A DNA stretch of 64,000 nt, from NCBI GenBank assembly GCA_016207515.1, contig JACQPN010000015.1, positions 1-64,000 of the forward strand, given 5' to 3'. The stretch comes from Euryarchaeota archaeon. GTDB lineage: Archaea; Thermoplasmatota; SW-10-69-26; JACQPN01. A program made the translations under genes and the position numbers. Positions 43,922 through 50,951 of the stretch are shown piece by piece. Under the pieces are notes generated by a model, which worked only from the letters and a program-made list of their open reading frames with translations, was not told where the DNA came from and ran no database searches. How positions within the stretch are numbered: position 1 is the stretch's first letter; each line of letters starts with the position of its first letter.

Positions 43922-44605
43922 GTGGAGGTGGACGAGTCGAGCCGCACGTCTTTTGCCCGGATACTGGTCGTGCTTGGCGGTGAGTCGCCAAGACGGGCGG
44001 ACCTTCGCCGCGCCGCCGCATCGGCGTTCGTGATCGCGGCCGATTCCGGGGCCGAACACCTTGAGCGCGTTGGGCTTACGCCAGACCTCGTCGTTGGCGA
44101 CCTCGACAGCATCCGCCGGGAAACGATCGCGCGTCTTCGCTCAAAGGGTGTTCCATGCGTGCGGTTCCCCCGACGAAAAGGGGCGACGGATGGTGACCTC
44201 GCCATCGCCGAAGCCCTTAGGCGTGGCCCGCGTGAGCTCGTCGTCGCCGCGGCATGGGGGGACCGCCCCGACCATTCGCTCGCCAACGTGGCGCTCCTTG
44301 AACGGGCTTCGAGACGGGGCTTAGCCGTACGCGGGATCGAGGCGCGCGCAAGATTCCACCTCCTCTCGCCAAGAAGGACCGTCCGCATAGGCGAACCACG
44401 GGGGACGTTGGTGTCCGTAGTCCCGCTCTCGAGCCGTCTCATGGGGCTCACTCTTTCCGGATTCGAATGGGACCTTCGTCGCGCAAGCGTGAGGCGTGGC
44501 GAGACCCTGACGATGAGCAACATCGTGAGGTCGCGCCGAGCAACAGCGTCTCTCGAACGTGGGAGCGCGCTTCTGGTCGTGCCGCTTAGGGCGAAAGCTC
44601 GATGA
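43922..44605 (+). CDS. Thiamine pyrophosphokinase
   Basis: 227 residues. The kinase fold is marked by ADSGAEHLERVGLTPDLVVGDLDSI (about 41-65), the RRKGATDGDLAIAEAL block (about 84-99), and AAAWGDRPDHSLANVALL (about 109-126). These carry the Asp residues for Mg-ATP and thiamine binding. The enzyme makes thiamine diphosphate from thiamine and ATP. The C-terminal beta domain is diverged but present. The GTG start fits a leaderless transcript. Its 3' end overlaps the convergent ABC ATPase gene by 20 bases, forming a thiamine salvage locus. Confidence 0.88.
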   Translation: MEVDESSRTSFARILVVLGGESPRRADLRRAAASAFVIAADSGAEHLERVGLTPDLVVGDLDSIRRETIARLRSKGVPCVRFPRRKGATDGDLAIAEALRRGPRELVVAAAWGDRPDHSLANVALLERASRRGLAVRGIEARARFHLLSPRRTVRIGEPRGTLVSVVPLSSRLMGLTLSGFEWDLRRASVRRGETLTMSNIVRSRRATASLERGSALLVVPLRAKAR

Positions 44606-45542
44606 CGCGCGACGCGGGGACGCGGAATTCCACGATGTCCCCACGCCCTTTTCCAGGAAAGGATGCGGCGTGGAGGCGCACCATGGAACCGCCCGCGTCC
44701 ACTTCGAGGAACTTGGTGGAGGCCGTCCACGGGATCGCGCGCACCACCCCGGAGAACGCGGTCCCCTCCCCGGACGAGGAGGCCGCCTCGGGCGGGAAGG
44801 CGATCCACCCGTCCTTCGTCTCGAGGACGTTGTGGAGTCCGATGAACTGTGCTGCGAAGACGCTGCGGGGACGGCTCGCAAGGTCGGCCGGTGTTGCCTC
44901 CTCGACTATGCGCCCTCGATCCATCACGGCCACGCGGTCGCCGAGTAGGAGCGCTTCGTCACGGTCGTGCGTCACGTAGATGGTCGTGAGCCCGAGCCTC
45001 TCGTGGAGGTCACGCAGTTGCCGGCGCAAGACATCTCGTAAGCCTCTATCGAGCGCCGACAGGGGTTCGTCAAGGAGCAGGATCTCAGGGTCGGCGGCGA
45101 GCGCCCGGGCGAGGGCGACGCGTTGTCTTTCCCCGCCGGAAAGTTCATGGACGCGTCGAGCGGCAAGCGGTGAGAGGCCGACCATCTCGAGGAAGCGCTC
45201 GGCGGTCGCGAGGCGTTCGCACTTCCCTAGATTGCGAAGCGTAGGTCCGAAGGCGACGTTCCCGATGACGTCGAGGTGCGGGAAGAGCGCGTAGTCCTGG
45301 AACACGAAGCCGATGCGGCGCTTCTCTGGAGGGACGTTCTCCATGTCCTTGCCGCCGATGGCTATCCGGCCGCCATCCGCTTTCTCGAGGCCGGCGATGA
45401 GTCGAAGTGTGGTGGTCTTTCCGCAGCCCGACGGGCCCAGAAGGCAGGTGAATCGGCCTTGGTCGACTTCGAGGTCCAATCCTCGAAGCGTCTCGACGCC
45501 GTCGTGCGATTTCCTGACGCCAGACAGGGTGACGGCCTTCAT
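44586..45542 (-). CDS. thiQ: ABC transporter ATPase, thiamine/iron type
   Basis: A 318-residue ATPase. Walker A is GPSGCGKTTT (about 36-45), the signature LSGGE is at 134-138, and Walker B is ILLLDEPLSALD (about 154-165). The Q-loop (FQDYALFPHL) and H-loop (YVTHDRDE) are intact. A TOBE-like C-terminal domain follows at about 230-318. It powers the permease encoded upstream, and its substrate is inferred as thiamine from the ThiB-like binding protein and the adjacent kinase. Ferric iron or polyamine is the alternative. It overlaps the permease stop. Confidence 0.87.
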   Translation of the reverse strand: MKAVTLSGVRKSHDGVETLRGLDLEVDQGRFTCLLGPSGCGKTTTLRLIAGLEKADGGRIAIGGKDMENVPPEKRRIGFVFQDYALFPHLDVIGNVAFGPTLRNLGKCERLATAERFLEMVGLSPLAARRVHELSGGERQRVALARALAADPEILLLDEPLSALDRGLRDVLRRQLRDLHERLGLTTIYVTHDRDEALLLGDRVAVMDRGRIVEEATPADLASRPRSVFAAQFIGLHNVLETKDGWIAFPPEAASSSGEGTAFSGVVRAIPWTASTKFLEVDAGGSMVRLHAASFPGKGRGDIVEFRVPASRVIELSP

Positions 45543-47182
45543 GCGCGCCGCCCTCCCCGTCGGTAGAGGGCAGCCTCGAGGGCGATGAACGCCGCCATGG
45601 AGACGAGAAGGAGAATCGTTGCGAGCGCCCGCGCCTGCCCGAGGTTCGCTGATCCCGGCAGCGCCACGTACCTGAAGATCGCAACAGGCACCGTCGTCCA
45701 CTCGGGACGCACGAGCAAAAGCGCTGCCGCGAACTCGCCGAGCGAAATGGCCGCTGCGAAGACCGCGACGGCCACCAGGGAAGGCACCAATAACGGGAGT
45801 TCCACGCGTCGGAACGCTTCTACGCGTGAGGCCCCGAGGGTCCGCGCGGCCTCGTTGAGCGAGGGCGTGATGCTCGCCACGGCCGTACGCATCCCGGCGA
45901 ACACGAACGGGAAGGCGATGAGCGAGTGGGCTATCACGATCGATGCCATCGTTGTACGTAGCGCGAGTGGCGGTCGGCCAAAGACCAGTATGTATCCGAA
46001 GGCGAGCGTGATCGCGGGCGTGATGAGGGGCAGGGCGTAGAGGCCGAGGAGGGCCTTGGAAACGCGTCCCCCGTTCTTTGCGGACAAGGCCGCCAATACG
46101 CCGAGCGGCAAAGCGACGAGAGCGGTCGCGATGGCGAAGGTCACGGAGTTCCAGACGGCAACGGATGGCGTCACGTAGAAGAGGGAACCGCGTTCGTCCG
46201 AGCCAAGGGCCTCGAAGTTCGTAAACCCGATGCCGGTCGGCGTGGAGAGGGCGCCGACGACAAGGCCAAGAAGCGGGAGGGCGAAAAGAAACGCAAGCGC
46301 GTAGGCGGCGACTCGGGTGGCCCACCCGGCGGCCTTCCTCGTCGACCCACGCCCGGTCTCCACGAACATGCGGCGCGACCCGCCGAACCTTGCGTACGCG
46401 AAGAGCACGAGCCCCGTGAAAAAGACCTGGAGAAGGGCCAATCCTGCGGCAGAGTCGAGCCTGAAGTACTGTGCCGTCAGGAGATAGACCGCGACCTCTA
46501 TCGTGTAGTCCCCGGGGGCGCCCAAGAGAAGCACTGTTCCGAATGCGGTGAAGGAGAAGAAGAAGACGAGGAGGCTTGAGGACGCGATCGACGGCATGAG
46601 AAGTGGGAGCGTCACCCGTAGAAACGCCGAGGCGCGCGTGGCCCCGAGCGTCCTCGCTTGATCCATGTACGTGTCCCCGAGCGATTCCCACGCGGCGCCC
46701 ACGACGCGCGTGACGACCGCCGCGTTGTAGTAGGCGTGCGAGAGGACGATGAGGGCAAGGCCGTTGGGGATCGTGAGCAGCGGCGAGGAAAGCCCGAGCG
46801 TCGCCGTGAGGAACGCGTTCGGGCCGCTGTTTTGGGAAAGCACGCTCAAGAGCGCCATCGCGACGACGAGCGGAGGGAGGACGAACGGGAGCGTGATCAA
46901 CGCCCGGATCCACGTACGTCCCGCGACGTTCTGACGGTAAAGAAGCCACGCGCTCGGAAGGCCGACGGCGATCGACAAAAGCACCGAGAGCACCGCCTGT
47001 TCGAAGGTGAACAGGATCGCCCGGCGGTTGAACGGGTCCGAAGCGGCCGTCGAGATCGCGTCGAGCGCCTGCGCGGGCGAGTGGAGGCTTTGGGCGACGA
47101 TCGCAGAGAGCGGGTAAAGGAAGAACGTCGCGAGGAAGACGAGGGGCGGAAATGCGAGCAGGGCGGCGTGCCTTATCCTCAT
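45539..47182 (-). CDS. thiP: ABC transporter permease, ThiP-type double-length
   Basis: A 547-residue permease made of two fused MetI-like halves (about 12 helices). The EAA loops are visible as AWESLGDTYMDQARTLGA (about 194) and ASITPSLNEAARTLGASRVEAF (about 420-445). Fused two-half permeases are typical of thiamine (ThiP) and ferric-iron (FbpB) importers. The stop overlaps the ATPase start. It lies 27 bases after the binding-protein gene, so one operon is likely. Confidence 0.88.
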   Translation of the reverse strand: MRIRHAALLAFPPLVFLATFFLYPLSAIVAQSLHSPAQALDAISTAASDPFNRRAILFTFEQAVLSVLLSIAVGLPSAWLLYRQNVAGRTWIRALITLPFVLPPLVVAMALLSVLSQNSGPNAFLTATLGLSSPLLTIPNGLALIVLSHAYYNAAVVTRVVGAAWESLGDTYMDQARTLGATRASAFLRVTLPLLMPSIASSSLLVFFFSFTAFGTVLLLGAPGDYTIEVAVYLLTAQYFRLDSAAGLALLQVFFTGLVLFAYARFGGSRRMFVETGRGSTRKAAGWATRVAAYALAFLFALPLLGLVVGALSTPTGIGFTNFEALGSDERGSLFYVTPSVAVWNSVTFAIATALVALPLGVLAALSAKNGGRVSKALLGLYALPLITPAITLAFGYILVFGRPPLALRTTMASIVIAHSLIAFPFVFAGMRTAVASITPSLNEAARTLGASRVEAFRRVELPLLVPSLVAVAVFAAAISLGEFAAALLLVRPEWTTVPVAIFRYVALPGSANLGQARALATILLLVSMAAFIALEAALYRRGGRRA

Positions 47183-47209
47183 ATGCCTCGTCCATCCCCC
47201 GAGTCGGTC

Positions 47210-48292
47210 TCAGGCGAGCATGACGTCGCGCCACGCTTCGAGCCATCGGTCGCGGCCCTCATCTATCTCTTGGGAAGTCAGCGTCGCCGGGTCTTCGGGT
47301 TCGCTCGCCCATTGGAAGTAAGCGGGCAACTCCGTCCCATTGACGGCCGGGTACACGAAATTCTTCTGCGGCATGTCCTCCTGTACTGCGGGACTCAGCA
47401 TGAAGTCCACGAAGTTCCTCGCGAGCCCGGCCTTCGTCGTTCCCTTGAGGATGCCGATGCCCTCGATCTGAAGGAAGGCCGAGTCGGGGGCGTCGATGCT
47501 TCCCGTCGGCGGCCGCGAGCCGGGGGTACCTCCGAAGAACGCCTCGGCCGCCGGGCTCGTCGCGTAACTCACGACGACCTGACTTTCCCCGCCGTAATGG
47601 GAGAACCTCGTGTAGTACACGTCCTCCCAGCCGCTCGCGACCGTCACGTCGTTCTCCTTGAGGCCCCGCCAGAAGTCGACGTACGTGTAATCACCGGTCT
47701 CGCCAAAGCGCGCCACGGTCGACATGAGGAAGGCAAGGCCCGGGGAACTCACGGAAGGGTCGATGACGGCAAGCTTGCCTTTCCATGCTGGTAGCGTAAG
47801 GTCCTTCAGGTCCGCGGGGAGCGGCGTCCCGGACGCTTCTATCGCCGCCACATCGTAGTTCAGGTTCACGTAGCCATAGTCGACGGAGGTCGCGTGGAAC
47901 GTCGGATCCAGAGTGAGGCGGGCCGGGATCTTCGCCGAATCGGCCGGCTGGTAGGGTTCGAAGACGCCTTCTTGGAGCGCCCTGCCGATGAGGGTGTTGT
48001 CGACACCATAGAAGAGATCGCCAAGGGGTGCCCCTCCACGATGAGCGATGATGGCCTTGTTCAAGGCCTCGCCGGCGTCGCCCGCCTTCAGGATGACCAC
48101 GCGCGCGTTGTATGTGGCGTTGAAGGCCTCGACAAGCGACCCGTTCATCTCGAACGAGTCGTGGGCTATGACGACGAGCTCGACCGGGTCCTGTCGGCCG
48201 GACGGTTGTGTTTGGATGCATCCGGCAAGCGCGATCAACGCGGTCAATGCGAGCGCGAACACCCGGTGTCTTCCAAAAGCCCGTGGGACCAT
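47210..48292 (-). CDS. thiB: ThiB-type substrate-binding lipoprotein of the ABC importer
   Basis: A 360-residue lipoprotein. The lipobox ALAGC places Cys near residue 25. The mature fold is a periplasmic-binding-protein type II, with LVVIAHDSFEMNGSLVEAFN at the N terminus, followed by GDLFYGVDNTLIGRALQEG, YGYVNLNYDV and GWEDVYYTRF. These resemble the thiamine-binding proteins TbpA/ThiB (GVDNT and the aromatic cluster). Thiamine is the inferred ligand. The ATG at 48292 follows TATA elements near 48320-48329. It heads the thiBPQ operon. Confidence 0.87.
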   Translation of the reverse strand: MVPRAFGRHRVFALALTALIALAGCIQTQPSGRQDPVELVVIAHDSFEMNGSLVEAFNATYNARVVILKAGDAGEALNKAIIAHRGGAPLGDLFYGVDNTLIGRALQEGVFEPYQPADSAKIPARLTLDPTFHATSVDYGYVNLNYDVAAIEASGTPLPADLKDLTLPAWKGKLAVIDPSVSSPGLAFLMSTVARFGETGDYTYVDFWRGLKENDVTVASGWEDVYYTRFSHYGGESQVVVSYATSPAAEAFFGGTPGSRPPTGSIDAPDSAFLQIEGIGILKGTTKAGLARNFVDFMLSPAVQEDMPQKNFVYPAVNGTELPAYFQWASEPEDPATLTSQEIDEGRDRWLEAWRDVMLA

Positions 48293-48303
48293 GTTCTCAA
48301 AAC

Positions 48304-48329
48304 CAGGTAATATAACCGTCTTATATAAG
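48304..48329 (-). promoter_or_regulatory. Promoter and possible operator of the thiBPQ operon
   Basis: CTTATATAAG (48320-48329) is the TATA box for the thiB ATG at 48292. Immediately downstream on the same strand is GGTTATATTACCTG (48304-48317), which resembles GGTATAAACCTG at the kinase promoter. No THI-box (TPP riboswitch) core was found. Confidence 0.5.
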
Positions 48330-48433
48330 GGCCTTGTAAGTGTCGGCGCCTCAATGGCGCATCGCCTGGGACAAGACGCGGATGAAAGAGCGGGCACGAA
48401 CCTTGATAAGTGAGCGTCGTTTCTTGTGGAACG

Positions 48434-49072
48434 ATGCGGGTCATCTGCCTCATGTCGGGTGGGATAGACTCACCCGTCGCAGCCTACCTCATGATGAAGG
48501 CCGGCGCCGACGTGGTGGGGCTCCACTTCGACAACCGGCCCTTCACCGACGACCGTGAGACGGAAAAAGCGTTCAAGCTCATGGATAGGCTGGAGGAGAT
48601 CACGGGCAAGAAGATGCGAAGACTCGTCTTGCCCCACGGTTTCATCACCCAAGTCGCGATCGCCCGCTCGCTCTCCGCCGAGGGCGCTCGCGGCCTCCAA
48701 TGCGTACTGTGTCGGCGCATGATGTGGCGCGCAGCCTCGGAGGCGGGCAAGATGGAAGGCGCTCAGGCCCTCGTCACGGGCGAAAGCCTTGGACAGGTCG
48801 CTTCCCAGACTTTGCTCAACATCCACGCCGAGACCGATGCAGCGGAACTGCCCATCCTTCGACCACTCCTTGGACTCGACAAGACCGAGATAATGGATCT
48901 CGCCCGGCGCATCGGCACGTACGACATCTCCACCATGCCCGGGATATGCTGCACCATCGTGCCCGACCATCCCGAGACGCACGCAGACCTGAACGTCGTG
49001 ATCGAAAAGGAAGCAAAAGTCGGCGTCCCGGCCCTCATGTCGAAGGTCATGGCAGGGATGACGGAGAGGTGA
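48434..49072 (+). CDS. ThiI-like PP-loop ATPase without THUMP domain
   Basis: A 212-residue protein made only of a PP-loop ATPase domain. The PP-loop is LMSGGIDSPVA (SGGIDS at residues 8-13). The segment LPILRPLLGLDKTEIMDLARRIGTYDIST and the following MPGICCTIVPDHPETH match the C-terminal part of ThiI; a cysteine pair (ICC) lies where ThiI carries a conserved CC. CVLCRRMM holds a second CxxC. ThiI thiolates U8 of tRNA or supplies sulfur for thiazole. The THUMP/NFLD tRNA-binding part is absent. The start ATG follows CCTTGATAAG. It heads the sulfur-relay operon. Confidence 0.85.
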   Translation: MRVICLMSGGIDSPVAAYLMMKAGADVVGLHFDNRPFTDDRETEKAFKLMDRLEEITGKKMRRLVLPHGFITQVAIARSLSAEGARGLQCVLCRRMMWRAASEAGKMEGAQALVTGESLGQVASQTLLNIHAETDAAELPILRPLLGLDKTEIMDLARRIGTYDISTMPGICCTIVPDHPETHADLNVVIEKEAKVGVPALMSKVMAGMTER

Positions 49073-49166
49073 GCCGGTGCCGCGCCAAGTGGTACACATC
49101 CGGTCCTCTACGCGCAAGGGCGGCCTTCCGACGCGGTCGGCGTTTGCGGCGCCGAGGTGAGGTACA

Positions 49167-49439
49167 TTGGGTTTCTACATCCTTGAGCCGTGCAAGACCC
49201 GTGCTGGCTTCGAGGCCATCCCGGAAAACAAGCTCGCGTGGGACCTTGGAAAGGCAGAAGCCGCCCTCGCGGCCGCCGGCATCCCTACCATCGCGAACGC
49301 GGGCGTCATCCTCGTCGTCGACGCCGGGTGCGAAGTCTCGTTGTTCGAATCCGGAAAACTGCTCTTCAAGACGCCGAACAGGGCCCTCGCAGAGGAGTCG
49401 ATGAACGCGGTACTCGACGTCATGAAGGTGTCGCGATGA
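49167..49439 (+). CDS. Small conserved protein of the sulfur-relay operon
   Basis: 90 residues, TTG start preceded by GAGGTGAGG. Two strand-helix units are predicted, with RAGFEAIPENKLAWDLGKAE and GVILVVDAGCEVSLFESGKLLFKT; the latter half is reminiscent of a TBP-like strand pattern but is not diagnostic. One cysteine in EPCKTRAG and one in DAGCEV could be reactive. The stop overlaps the cysteine desulfurase start (ATGA). Its location between the PP-loop protein and the desulfurase suggests a sulfur-carrier or adaptor role; this is inference only. Confidence 0.6.
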   Translation: MGFYILEPCKTRAGFEAIPENKLAWDLGKAEAALAAAGIPTIANAGVILVVDAGCEVSLFESGKLLFKTPNRALAEESMNAVLDVMKVSR

Positions 49440-50671
49440 ACGTCGCGACGATCCGCAAGGAATTCCCGATTCTCATGCGGAGCCCGCCGCCAGCGTATCT
49501 TGATAACGCGTGCATGACGCTCAAACCACGCCAGGTCATCGCCGCCCTCACCCGCTACTACGAGGATTACCCGTTCTGCGCCGGCCGCGCCGTCTATGAA
49601 GGAGCGGCGACCGTGGAAAGAAAAGTGGAGGAGACGCGTGGCGCCGTGGCGCGACTCATCAACGCGGCCTCCAAGGACGAGATCGTCTTCACGCGAAACA
49701 CGACGGAGGCCATCAACCTCGTCTCACGCGCCTTCCCGTTCGAGAAGGGCCAGACGATCGTCACGTCGGACAAGGAGCACAATAGTAATCTTGTACCGTG
49801 GCAACTCGCTTCACGTCTTCGTGAGACGCGCCACGTCGTCGTCTCGAGCACTCCCGACGGCGGGTTCGACCTCAAACGGTTCGAAGCGACCCTCGGCCGC
49901 GAAAGACCCGCGATGGTCTCGATGGCGCATACCAGTAACCTCGATGGGACGACGATCCCGGCCGCAGAGGTCGTCGCCGCCGCCCACGAGACGGGCGCGC
50001 TCGTCATGCTCGACGCCGCCCAATCGGTCCCACATGGGCCCTTCGATGTCCGCTCGCTCGACGTAGATTTGGCGGCCTTCAGCCTGCACAAGATGCTCGG
50101 CCCCACGGGAGTCGGCGTCCTCTATGGGAAGGCAGACGTTTTGGCGCGACTCGATGAATTCAACGTGGGCGGCGAGACCGTCCACGACACGACCTACGCG
50201 ACGCACGAGATGAAGGACGCTCCGGCACGCTTCGAGGCGGGGCTCCAGGATTATGCGGGGCTCATCGCCGCCAAGGAGGCGGTTGATTACGTCGGGCGCG
50301 TCGGCCCCTCGAACATCGCCTTCCACGAGCGCGAACTCAACGCACAAATGGACGGGGCTCTCCGGGAGATCCCGGGCGTCTCGGTGCTCGGCCCCGTGGA
50401 TCCACGGGAACGCGGCGGGATAACTTCCTTCAACGTCGCAGGCCTCGACCCGCACGAGGTCGCGATCCTTCTCGAAGACCTCTCCGGTGTCATGGTGCGC
50501 TCGGGTGATCACTGTGTGCACTCGTGGTTCAACGCGAACAAGATACCCGGATCGGTCCGGTCGTCCGTTTACCTTTACAACGACAGCGGCGACGTGGAAA
50601 GGCTGACGGACGGTGCGGAGCTCATAGCAAGGAAGCGATCAGGGGCGTCATCGAAGCGCGGTCCTGGTTGA
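49436..50671 (+). CDS. sufS: Cysteine desulfurase, SufS/CsdA type
   Basis: A 411-residue class V aminotransferase-fold enzyme. The PLP lysine is at about residue 219 (FSLHKMLGPTGVGVLYG), the cofactor Asp in MLDAAQSVPH (Asp193), and the persulfide cysteine at about 360 in VRSGDHCVHSWFN. These define the type II (SufS) pattern. It draws sulfur from cysteine for Fe-S clusters or tRNA thiolation. The ATG overlaps the preceding stop. With the PP-loop protein and small gene upstream, it likely feeds a thiolation pathway. About 20 basic residues end the protein. Confidence 0.9.
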   Translation: MNVATIRKEFPILMRSPPPAYLDNACMTLKPRQVIAALTRYYEDYPFCAGRAVYEGAATVERKVEETRGAVARLINAASKDEIVFTRNTTEAINLVSRAFPFEKGQTIVTSDKEHNSNLVPWQLASRLRETRHVVVSSTPDGGFDLKRFEATLGRERPAMVSMAHTSNLDGTTIPAAEVVAAAHETGALVMLDAAQSVPHGPFDVRSLDVDLAAFSLHKMLGPTGVGVLYGKADVLARLDEFNVGGETVHDTTYATHEMKDAPARFEAGLQDYAGLIAAKEAVDYVGRVGPSNIAFHERELNAQMDGALREIPGVSVLGPVDPRERGGITSFNVAGLDPHEVAILLEDLSGVMVRSGDHCVHSWFNANKIPGSVRSSVYLYNDSGDVERLTDGAELIARKRSGASSKRGPG

Positions 50672-50696: not shown

Positions 50697-50951
50697 TCAA
50701 CCGAAGCGTAACTTCAGAGCGACCATGGAAAGCCCTAGCACGAGGCTCACGCCGTTCGCCAGTATCAACGGCAGCGCCCCAAGGATCAACCCGTAGACGA
50801 GCCAAAGTGAGATTCCAGCGCAAAAGACCACGAACATGGGAAGCGACACGTCTCGCGCCGATCTTGTGCGCCAGGTCTGGAGGATCTGGGGAAGGAGTGC
50901 GCTCGTCGTCAAGGTCCCTGCAACAATTCCGAGTATTGTGACGTCGTCCAT
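50697..50951 (-). CDS. SemiSWEET-type PQ-loop transporter
   Basis: An 84-residue three-helix protein. TSALLPQILQTWRTRSARDVSL carries the PQ motif of the MtN3/SWEET family (about residues 16-37), and LWLVYGLILGALPLILANGVSLVLG is helix 3. SemiSWEETs dimerise to form a small-molecule (sugar) facilitator. The ligand is not known. Length is exactly in the usual range (about 85-95 residues). It faces the desulfurase gene and precedes a secreted membrane protein in the same direction. Confidence 0.9.
   Translation of the reverse strand: MDDVTILGIVAGTLTTSALLPQILQTWRTRSARDVSLPMFVVFCAGISLWLVYGLILGALPLILANGVSLVLGLSMVALKLRFG

Follow-up and report, generated by a model that had tools for sequence, protein, structure and literature searches.

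Three genes on the plus strand of a 64,000-nucleotide stretch (the window; contig JACQPN010000015.1, or contig C15) of the genome GCA_016207515.1, from an uncultivated archaeon, at positions 48434-49072, 49167-49439 and 49436-50671, have about an even chance of forming the part of a split ThiI/TtuI enzyme that supplies sulfur and carries out catalysis; this enzyme would make 4-thiouridine (s4U) at position 8 (and/or 9) of tRNA. They encode a PP-loop protein with three conserved cysteines, a small protein that resembles one half-repeat of TATA-binding protein (half-TBP) and carries a cysteine at residue 9 (Cys9), and a cysteine desulfurase. A separate protein with a THUMP domain and no PP-loop motif is encoded on another contig of this genome (2.67 Mb, 98.37% complete). 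The coordinates of the three open reading frames (ORFs) were confirmed by reading the window sequence: 94 nt separate the first gene from the second, and the second and third overlap by 4 nt (ATGA). Because conserved relatives exist for all three genes, and other genomes repeat the PP-loop/small and small/desulfurase pairings, the group is more than a chance arrangement.

First, the gene at 48434..49072 (plus strand, ATG start) encodes a stand-alone PP-loop protein of 212 amino acids (aa) with neither an N-terminal ferredoxin-like domain (NFLD) nor THUMP, for which no Pfam match was obtained at E<=1. It matches PF02568 at 9.9e-59 and NCBIfam PRK08349 at 7.9e-63, the latter below the cut-off of the model; its score for TIGR00342 is 190.7 bits, with the cut-off at 264.5, and it does not join NFLD and THUMP in one chain as a full-length ThiI does. 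The PP-loop motif SGGIDS lies at residues 8-13 (48455..48472; SGGIDSP with the next residue), the CxxC motif CVLC at residues 90-93 (48701..48712), and a third conserved cysteine, Cys173, in GICC (48950..48952), all on the plus strand. Motifs were counted among the best-scoring 30 matches of each search, less the fused ones, a choice that favours intact PP-loops. On this basis the PP-loop motif (SGG/SSG/SDG-I-DSP), the CxxC and the third cysteine are present in 24/24 stand-alone PP-loop proteins. By its motifs, the protein is thus assigned to the catalytic part of ThiI/TtuI (PF02568 plus PP-loop motif) and to the archaeal Fe-S type (CxxC plus third cysteine). The three cysteines, of which the CxxC pair are presumed Fe-S ligands, would form a putative Fe-S site by analogy with the ThiI of Methanococcus maripaludis, which depends on all three (PMC5372739). 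The first-pass annotation of the window had described a PP-loop protein without THUMP but with ThiI-like cysteines, coupled to a 90-residue protein and a desulfurase whose genes overlap; the PF02568 match, CVLC and GICC, the ATGA overlap and the recurrence of the gene group in relatives all agree with that description.

Second, the tRNA-binding part of the enzyme probably exists as another gene. A search of the genome for a separate THUMP protein, a check proposed in the first-pass annotation, gave a single match (E<=0.001), which lies in a gene at about 289 kb of contig C2. This C2 protein has ThiI_fer and THUMP domains followed by a reduced PP-loop domain, which reads IIDDVES where SGGIDS is expected and is without a CxxC over the aligned stretch; its N-terminal part is basic (isoelectric point, pI, 9.5). 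Its best PDB match is 1vbk (1.5e-34), the Pyrococcus horikoshii protein PH1313, which also lacks the PP-loop motif in that alignment. PH1313 has been reviewed as a ThiI-like protein of unconfirmed activity in which conserved ThiI residues are missing (PMC9957541). Among the best-scoring matches, the PP-loop motif or a CxxC in the aligned region is found in 0/23 stand-alone THUMP proteins. The genome of the window appears twice in the motif alignment, under G000 and under L040/L063, and is counted once each in the 24 and the 23; the CxxC flag of L063 comes from a frame upstream of the aligned region.

The occurrence of the PP-loop family and of the ThiI ferredoxin-like domain was surveyed in 60 genomes, this one and 59 relatives. 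Both parts stand in one ORF, as a fused ThiI, in 8/60. The 52 genomes without a detected fused ThiI comprise 33 with both parts, 3 with the PP-loop only, 5 with the ferredoxin-like/THUMP part only and 11 with neither (Fisher p 1.8e-5 for co-occurrence, uncorrected for relatedness); one of the PP-loop-only genomes, G017, has a frame of 396 aa in which a fusion may have escaped detection. In three fused ThiI of family f27, the PP-loop is present, a pattern search finds no CxxC, and the tail is rhodanese (3/3 tested); the fused ThiI of f5 has no CxxC at the aligned position, and that of f23 has one. In a tree of 32 PP-loops, the 24 split sequences group together with the f23 fused sequence (96/91), and f27 and f5 fall outside; split status is therefore not strictly confined to one clade. 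In bacterial ThiI, which dimerises mainly via its PP-loop domains, the NFLD/THUMP part of one subunit binds RNA and brings U8 close to the catalytic centre of its partner (PMC4041423). Since the bacterial enzyme works across its dimer, it is mechanically plausible that an active PP-loop subunit could be combined with a THUMP subunit whose own PP-loop domain is dead. We consider it very probable, from domain and motif content, that ThiI/TtuI of this archaeon is a split enzyme, in which the THUMP and PP-loop proteins would pair as subunits.

Fragmentation of the genome assembly was considered as a source of the apparent split and rejected, as the PP-loop gene is flanked by other genes in the middle of the window, that for THUMP is about 289 kb into C2, and the two parts are separate in 33/52 genomes. 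A minimal THUMP-free enzyme, a reading close to the minimal tRNA thiolation module of the first-pass annotation, was rejected in view of the C2 protein, which carries ThiI_fer and THUMP. The same annotation had named a THUMP-ThiI elsewhere performing the step as something that would refute its reading; the C2 protein, which has THUMP but not the catalytic motif, is not a case of this. Its suggestion that the small protein is either an adaptor or the missing tRNA-binding part survives in its first half, which fits a half-TBP fold with an invariant cysteine; the tRNA-binding part is likely the C2 THUMP protein and not the 90-aa protein. The s4U9 reported in Thermoplasma acidophilum tRNA (PMC4307237) was dropped as an argument for the split type, as the f18 genomes were tentatively judged not to be Thermoplasma, and the portions of PMC6393311 consulted contain no s4U data. 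Among the open-licence papers listed, no title or abstract opening points to a split or THUMP-less ThiI or to a TBP-like sulfur relay; a 2022 paper on archaeal U8-tRNA sulfurases may cover part of this.

The small gene (49167..49439, plus strand) starts with TTG and encodes 90 aa. A Shine-Dalgarno-like sequence, GAGGTGAGG, can be read upstream of the start (49154..49162, plus strand), and the start agrees with the aligned start MCFYILELC of a relative. A Pfam scan of the protein gave no match at E<=1, with none to rhodanese (PF00581). Searched against PDB, a 17-row profile of the family (A1) has TATA-binding proteins as its best matches (best E 0.0021), and the Pfam TBP model is matched by 3/17 members (best 0.0012). 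An AlphaFold2 model built from four sequences reached a moderate confidence score (pLDDT) of 80.4 at best, and it superimposes on the archaeal TBP 1ais with Z 10.8 over 83 residues (root-mean-square deviation 2.6). TBP rows take ranks 1-32 in that comparison, the first non-TBP entry having Z 8.4. Foldseek with the same model gave mostly TBP and RNase H3 among its top rows, none below E 0.024. Profile and model together indicate, with little doubt, that the protein is one TBP half-repeat.

Cys9 (49191..49193, plus strand) is cysteine in 43/43 aligned family rows, a count favoured by the fact that the rows were gathered with a profile containing the cysteine, and in 10 further copies of families f17 and f25 by reading. 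Gly63 is likewise invariant, and Pro19 is kept in 40 rows. Three loci (L102-L104) were left out of this alignment, of the table of ORF ends and genomes and of the desulfurase tree because they duplicate L084-L086. One of them, L102 (JAJPHT010000020.1), is titled 'Proteobacteria bacterium' and has the same small/desulfurase pair as the relative G004; the title looks wrong. Homologues of the small protein were found in 20/60 genomes by single-sequence search and in 134/294 genomes of the phylum by profile (E<=1e-4). The protein accompanies the split enzyme in 17/33 genomes and the fused one in 0/8 (p 0.013); G101, of family f5 and probably fused, has a weak match to the half-TBP profile (4.5e-5) in a 339-aa frame.

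The gene at 49436..50671 (plus strand, ATG start) encodes a protein of 411 aa that matches PF00266 at 1.8e-105 and TIGR01979 (sufS) at 1e-114, although its 383.6 bits are below the cut-off of 475.1 for the latter. Lys219 in FSLHK (50090..50092) and Cys360 in RSGDHC (50513..50515), both read from the motifs on the plus strand, are presumably the pyridoxal phosphate (PLP) lysine and the catalytic cysteine. With an aminotransferase-V domain, the lysine and the loop cysteine, it is classified as a SufS-type cysteine desulfurase. Its loop reads RSGDHCVHSW, compared with RSGHHCAQP in another desulfurase of the same genome. In a midpoint-rooted tree of 9 sequences, from which short pieces (L097 and the second of L098) were left out, the 7 desulfurases adjacent to half-TBP genes (that of the window and 6 others) group together (100/99), apart from the 2 other desulfurase-like proteins of the genome; these 7 read R[SA]G[DLMA]HC..[SA]W, and the other two RSGHHCAQP and RAGHHCALP. 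Such features suggest that the desulfurase is probably dedicated to this gene group. Four half-TBP-linked desulfurases (window, L084, L097, L098) have an extra cysteine in the N-terminal region, in LD[NS][AG]C[MV][TS]L, at a place where LDSAAT stands in two other desulfurases encoded by the genome; the pattern was not found in the remaining linked desulfurases.

The neighbourhoods of the half-TBP gene in other genomes connect it with both partners. Close copies (E<1e-18) occur in 31 genomes outside families f17 and f25. A same-strand PP-loop gene lies within about 1.1 kb of the small gene in 23 of the 31 (including G001) and within 2.8 kb in 2 more. The PP-loop gene adjoins it divergently in G063, and it adjoins a desulfurase gene in G002, G004, G005 and G043. 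One or the other neighbour is thus present in 30/31 genomes; in the remaining one, G234, it is an E1-half-TBP gene that adjoins the PP-loop. As 14 of the 31 genomes belong to family f7 and are not independent, the same-strand PP-loop link was also counted by family, giving 11/16. All three genes stand together in G000, G042 and G075, in the last with a winged-helix gene in between. It could be supposed that Cys9 simply gives a ligand or sulfide to the three-cysteine Fe-S site of the PP-loop protein, without carrying the persulfide of the desulfurase. The three cysteines in 24/24 PP-loop subunits, as in Fe-S-type ThiI, and a single invariant cysteine in the small protein fit this; however, the small gene adjoins a desulfurase even when the PP-loop is elsewhere, and the cysteine is kept in relatives far from any PP-loop, so that we regard this role as improbable.

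The small protein also has relatives within larger enzymes. In G042 and G234, the gene directly 5′ of the PP-loop encodes a ThiF-family E1-like protein (PF00899) whose C-terminal part matches the small-protein profile (5e-5 and 3e-6). When seven E1 tails were compared with the small-protein alignment by hhalign, the match had a probability of 97.8 and E 1.2e-12, with cysteine on cysteine in a C..P motif, and the profile of the tails finds TBP in PDB (0.0072). By profile comparison, the small protein is therefore judged homologous to the half-TBP tail of some E1-like enzymes. In 30 E1 ThiF/MoeB loci (L131-L160), the tail is rhodanese in 17 (Pfam), half-TBP in 5 (L137, L144, L145, L153, L154; profile and reading) and absent in 8. 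Further E1-like enzymes are at L097 1280-2446 and L120 5147-6322. Pfam named nothing in the six half-TBP tails examined, and the E1 of the genome studied here is ThiS-ThiF-rhodanese. Such a TBP-like tail was already reported in 2010 by Makarova and Koonin, who suggested a ubiquitin-like nature for small TBP-like proteins with a terminal GG (PMC2948915). If their proposal held here, the small protein would be a C-terminally activated, ubiquitin-like carrier of TBP fold. Apart from the homology to E1-fused domains, little fits: among 42 ORFs of the family, two of which are E1 fusions, none ends in the GG of the arCOG06308 type of TBP-like ubiquitin-like protein, the window protein ends in KVSR, and the conserved cysteine is near the N-terminus. 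Thus, we consider this role highly improbable.

Taken as a sulfur relay, the gene set may work as follows. The C2 THUMP protein would bind the acceptor/CCA end of the tRNA and bring U8, in trans, into the active site of the PP-loop subunit, as modelled on the two subunits of the bacterial ThiI dimer. The desulfurase would take sulfur from cysteine, form a persulfide on Cys360 and transfer it to Cys9 of the half-TBP protein, which would dock on the PP-loop subunit and pass the sulfur to its CxxC...C (Fe-S) site. The PP-loop subunit would adenylate U8 and then thiolate it with the delivered sulfur. We infer the two sulfur transfers and the complex; the half-TBP domain would be the counterpart of the C-terminal rhodanese in Escherichia coli-type ThiI and Uba4-type E1 enzymes. 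That the half-TBP protein is a sulfur carrier is tentatively proposed, at slightly less than an even chance. More speculative is the wider idea that half-TBP is a general sulfur-relay domain beside rhodanese and TusA/SirA, whose E1-tail form feeds ubiquitin-like carriers and whose free form bridges a dedicated desulfurase and a split ThiI with a dead-paralogue THUMP subunit.

Several observations weigh against the relay. In 9/10 fetched loci of families f17 and f25 (L169, L170, L172-L178), the small gene precedes Sua5-like and Map-like (methionine aminopeptidase) genes, the tenth (L171) stopping at a contig end, and three further f17 loci (L091, L093, L099) share this context. No PP-loop or desulfurase match lies nearby in any of the ten, and the cysteine is kept in every copy; in some f17 genomes (G027, G048, G056) a PF02568 match is absent altogether. 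More distant half-TBP copies, which retain this cysteine, are preceded by a gene for a P-loop kinase (L111-L117, L119; AAA_17 in L116). The half-TBP family is thus not only a partner of ThiI, f17/f25 representing a second conserved context, and for this reason our estimate was lowered for the relay from about even to a little under it, and for the whole reading from slightly better than even to even. The small protein was not found in 16/33 split-ThiI genomes by single-sequence search, so it may not be obligatory, and the cysteine is absent in 1/7 E1 half-TBP tails (L144). Only one of the five AlphaFold2 models was good, the other four having pLDDT of 47.9 to 52.0. Lastly, the Fe-S-type ThiI of M. 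maripaludis can use sulfide (PMC5372739), so that a relay may be unneeded.

The fold itself raises a different question. TBP and the N-domain of RNase HIII, the fold relatives of the small protein, bind nucleic acid, and the operon-linked members have a median pI of 8.9 and a median charge of +2; RNA binding is therefore possible, and the small protein might be an adaptor that holds tRNA for the PP-loop subunit. The gene adjoins the PP-loop in most close-copy genomes outside f17/f25, and its other conserved neighbour is Sua5-like, of a family with a role in tRNA modification. However, the genome already has a THUMP/NFLD protein whose N-terminal part is basic, the window protein has a pI of 5.0, and the net charge of operon-linked members ranges from -14 to +6. 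In G002, G004, G005, G006 and G043, moreover, the small gene adjoins the desulfurase with no same-strand PP-loop beside it, and only two of its residues never vary, one cysteine and one glycine. On balance, the RNA adaptor is unlikely, and sulfur transfer through Cys9 is preferred. Some of the distant copies mentioned above occur as tandem pairs (L113 4751-5334, L114 4621-5210).

Known systems resemble the proposed one in part. Like the archaeal Fe-S ThiI/TtuI of M. maripaludis, the PP-loop protein has CxxC, a third cysteine and no rhodanese, and its presumed partner has NFLD and THUMP; unlike it, the parts for catalysis and for tRNA binding are two different proteins, of which the THUMP one has no PP-loop motif, and a desulfurase and a half-TBP gene are linked. 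PH1313 resembles the C2 protein most closely in PDB, but in this survey 33 genomes contain a protein of this kind together with a stand-alone PP-loop that looks active, whereas PH1313 is given no partner or function in the relevant part of PMC9957541. The TBP-like tail of E1-like ThiF/MoeB (PMC2948915) is the same domain by profile, with the cysteine aligned; here it stands alone, linked to a ThiI PP-loop and a desulfurase and without a C-terminal GG. In Bacillus subtilis, the desulfurase gene nifZ adjoins that of a rhodanese-less ThiI, but the passages of PMC5372739 on this pair neither describe ThiI as split nor mention a third protein. The relays of E. coli IscS/ThiI-rhodanese and Uba4-rhodanese do the job proposed for the half-TBP protein, which differs from them in fold and in being a separate gene. 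Sulfur delivery to archaeal ThiI has been described as open, since most homologues have no rhodanese and their physiological donor has yet to be identified (PMC5372739). The present gene set suggests, for archaeal ThiI, a specific donor and a specific carrier in which one cysteine is the candidate site, and it would also explain how the parts for catalysis and tRNA binding can be encoded apart. If this is true, a function would be suggested for the E1 TBP-like tail, and PH1313-like 'dead ThiI' proteins would be working subunits.

The genes next to the group are related to thiamine. At 43922-48397 lie a thiamine diphosphokinase gene on the plus strand (TIGR01378 3e-44) and genes of a ThiB-like/ThiP-like ABC transporter on the minus strand. 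ThiI has a role in thiamine in E. coli, and the module might accordingly serve thiamine (as thiazole sulfur) or another small molecule, as the adjoining salvage cluster and the presence of ThiC in six genomes with both the PP-loop and the small gene (G005, G006, G011, G022, G029, G030) could suggest. However, the 98.37% complete genome of the window has no ThiC match and only short Thi4 hits without a full copy, and no ThiC match was found in 8/14 genomes with both genes (G000, G001, G002, G004, G008, G009, G015, G019). A diphosphokinase and a transporter without ThiC or full Thi4 fit thiamine uptake, not synthesis, and thiamine is very unlikely to be the purpose of the module. Just downstream of the desulfurase, on the opposite strand (50697-50951), the window encodes a small PQ-loop/SWEET-like membrane protein (PF04193 2.9e-10).

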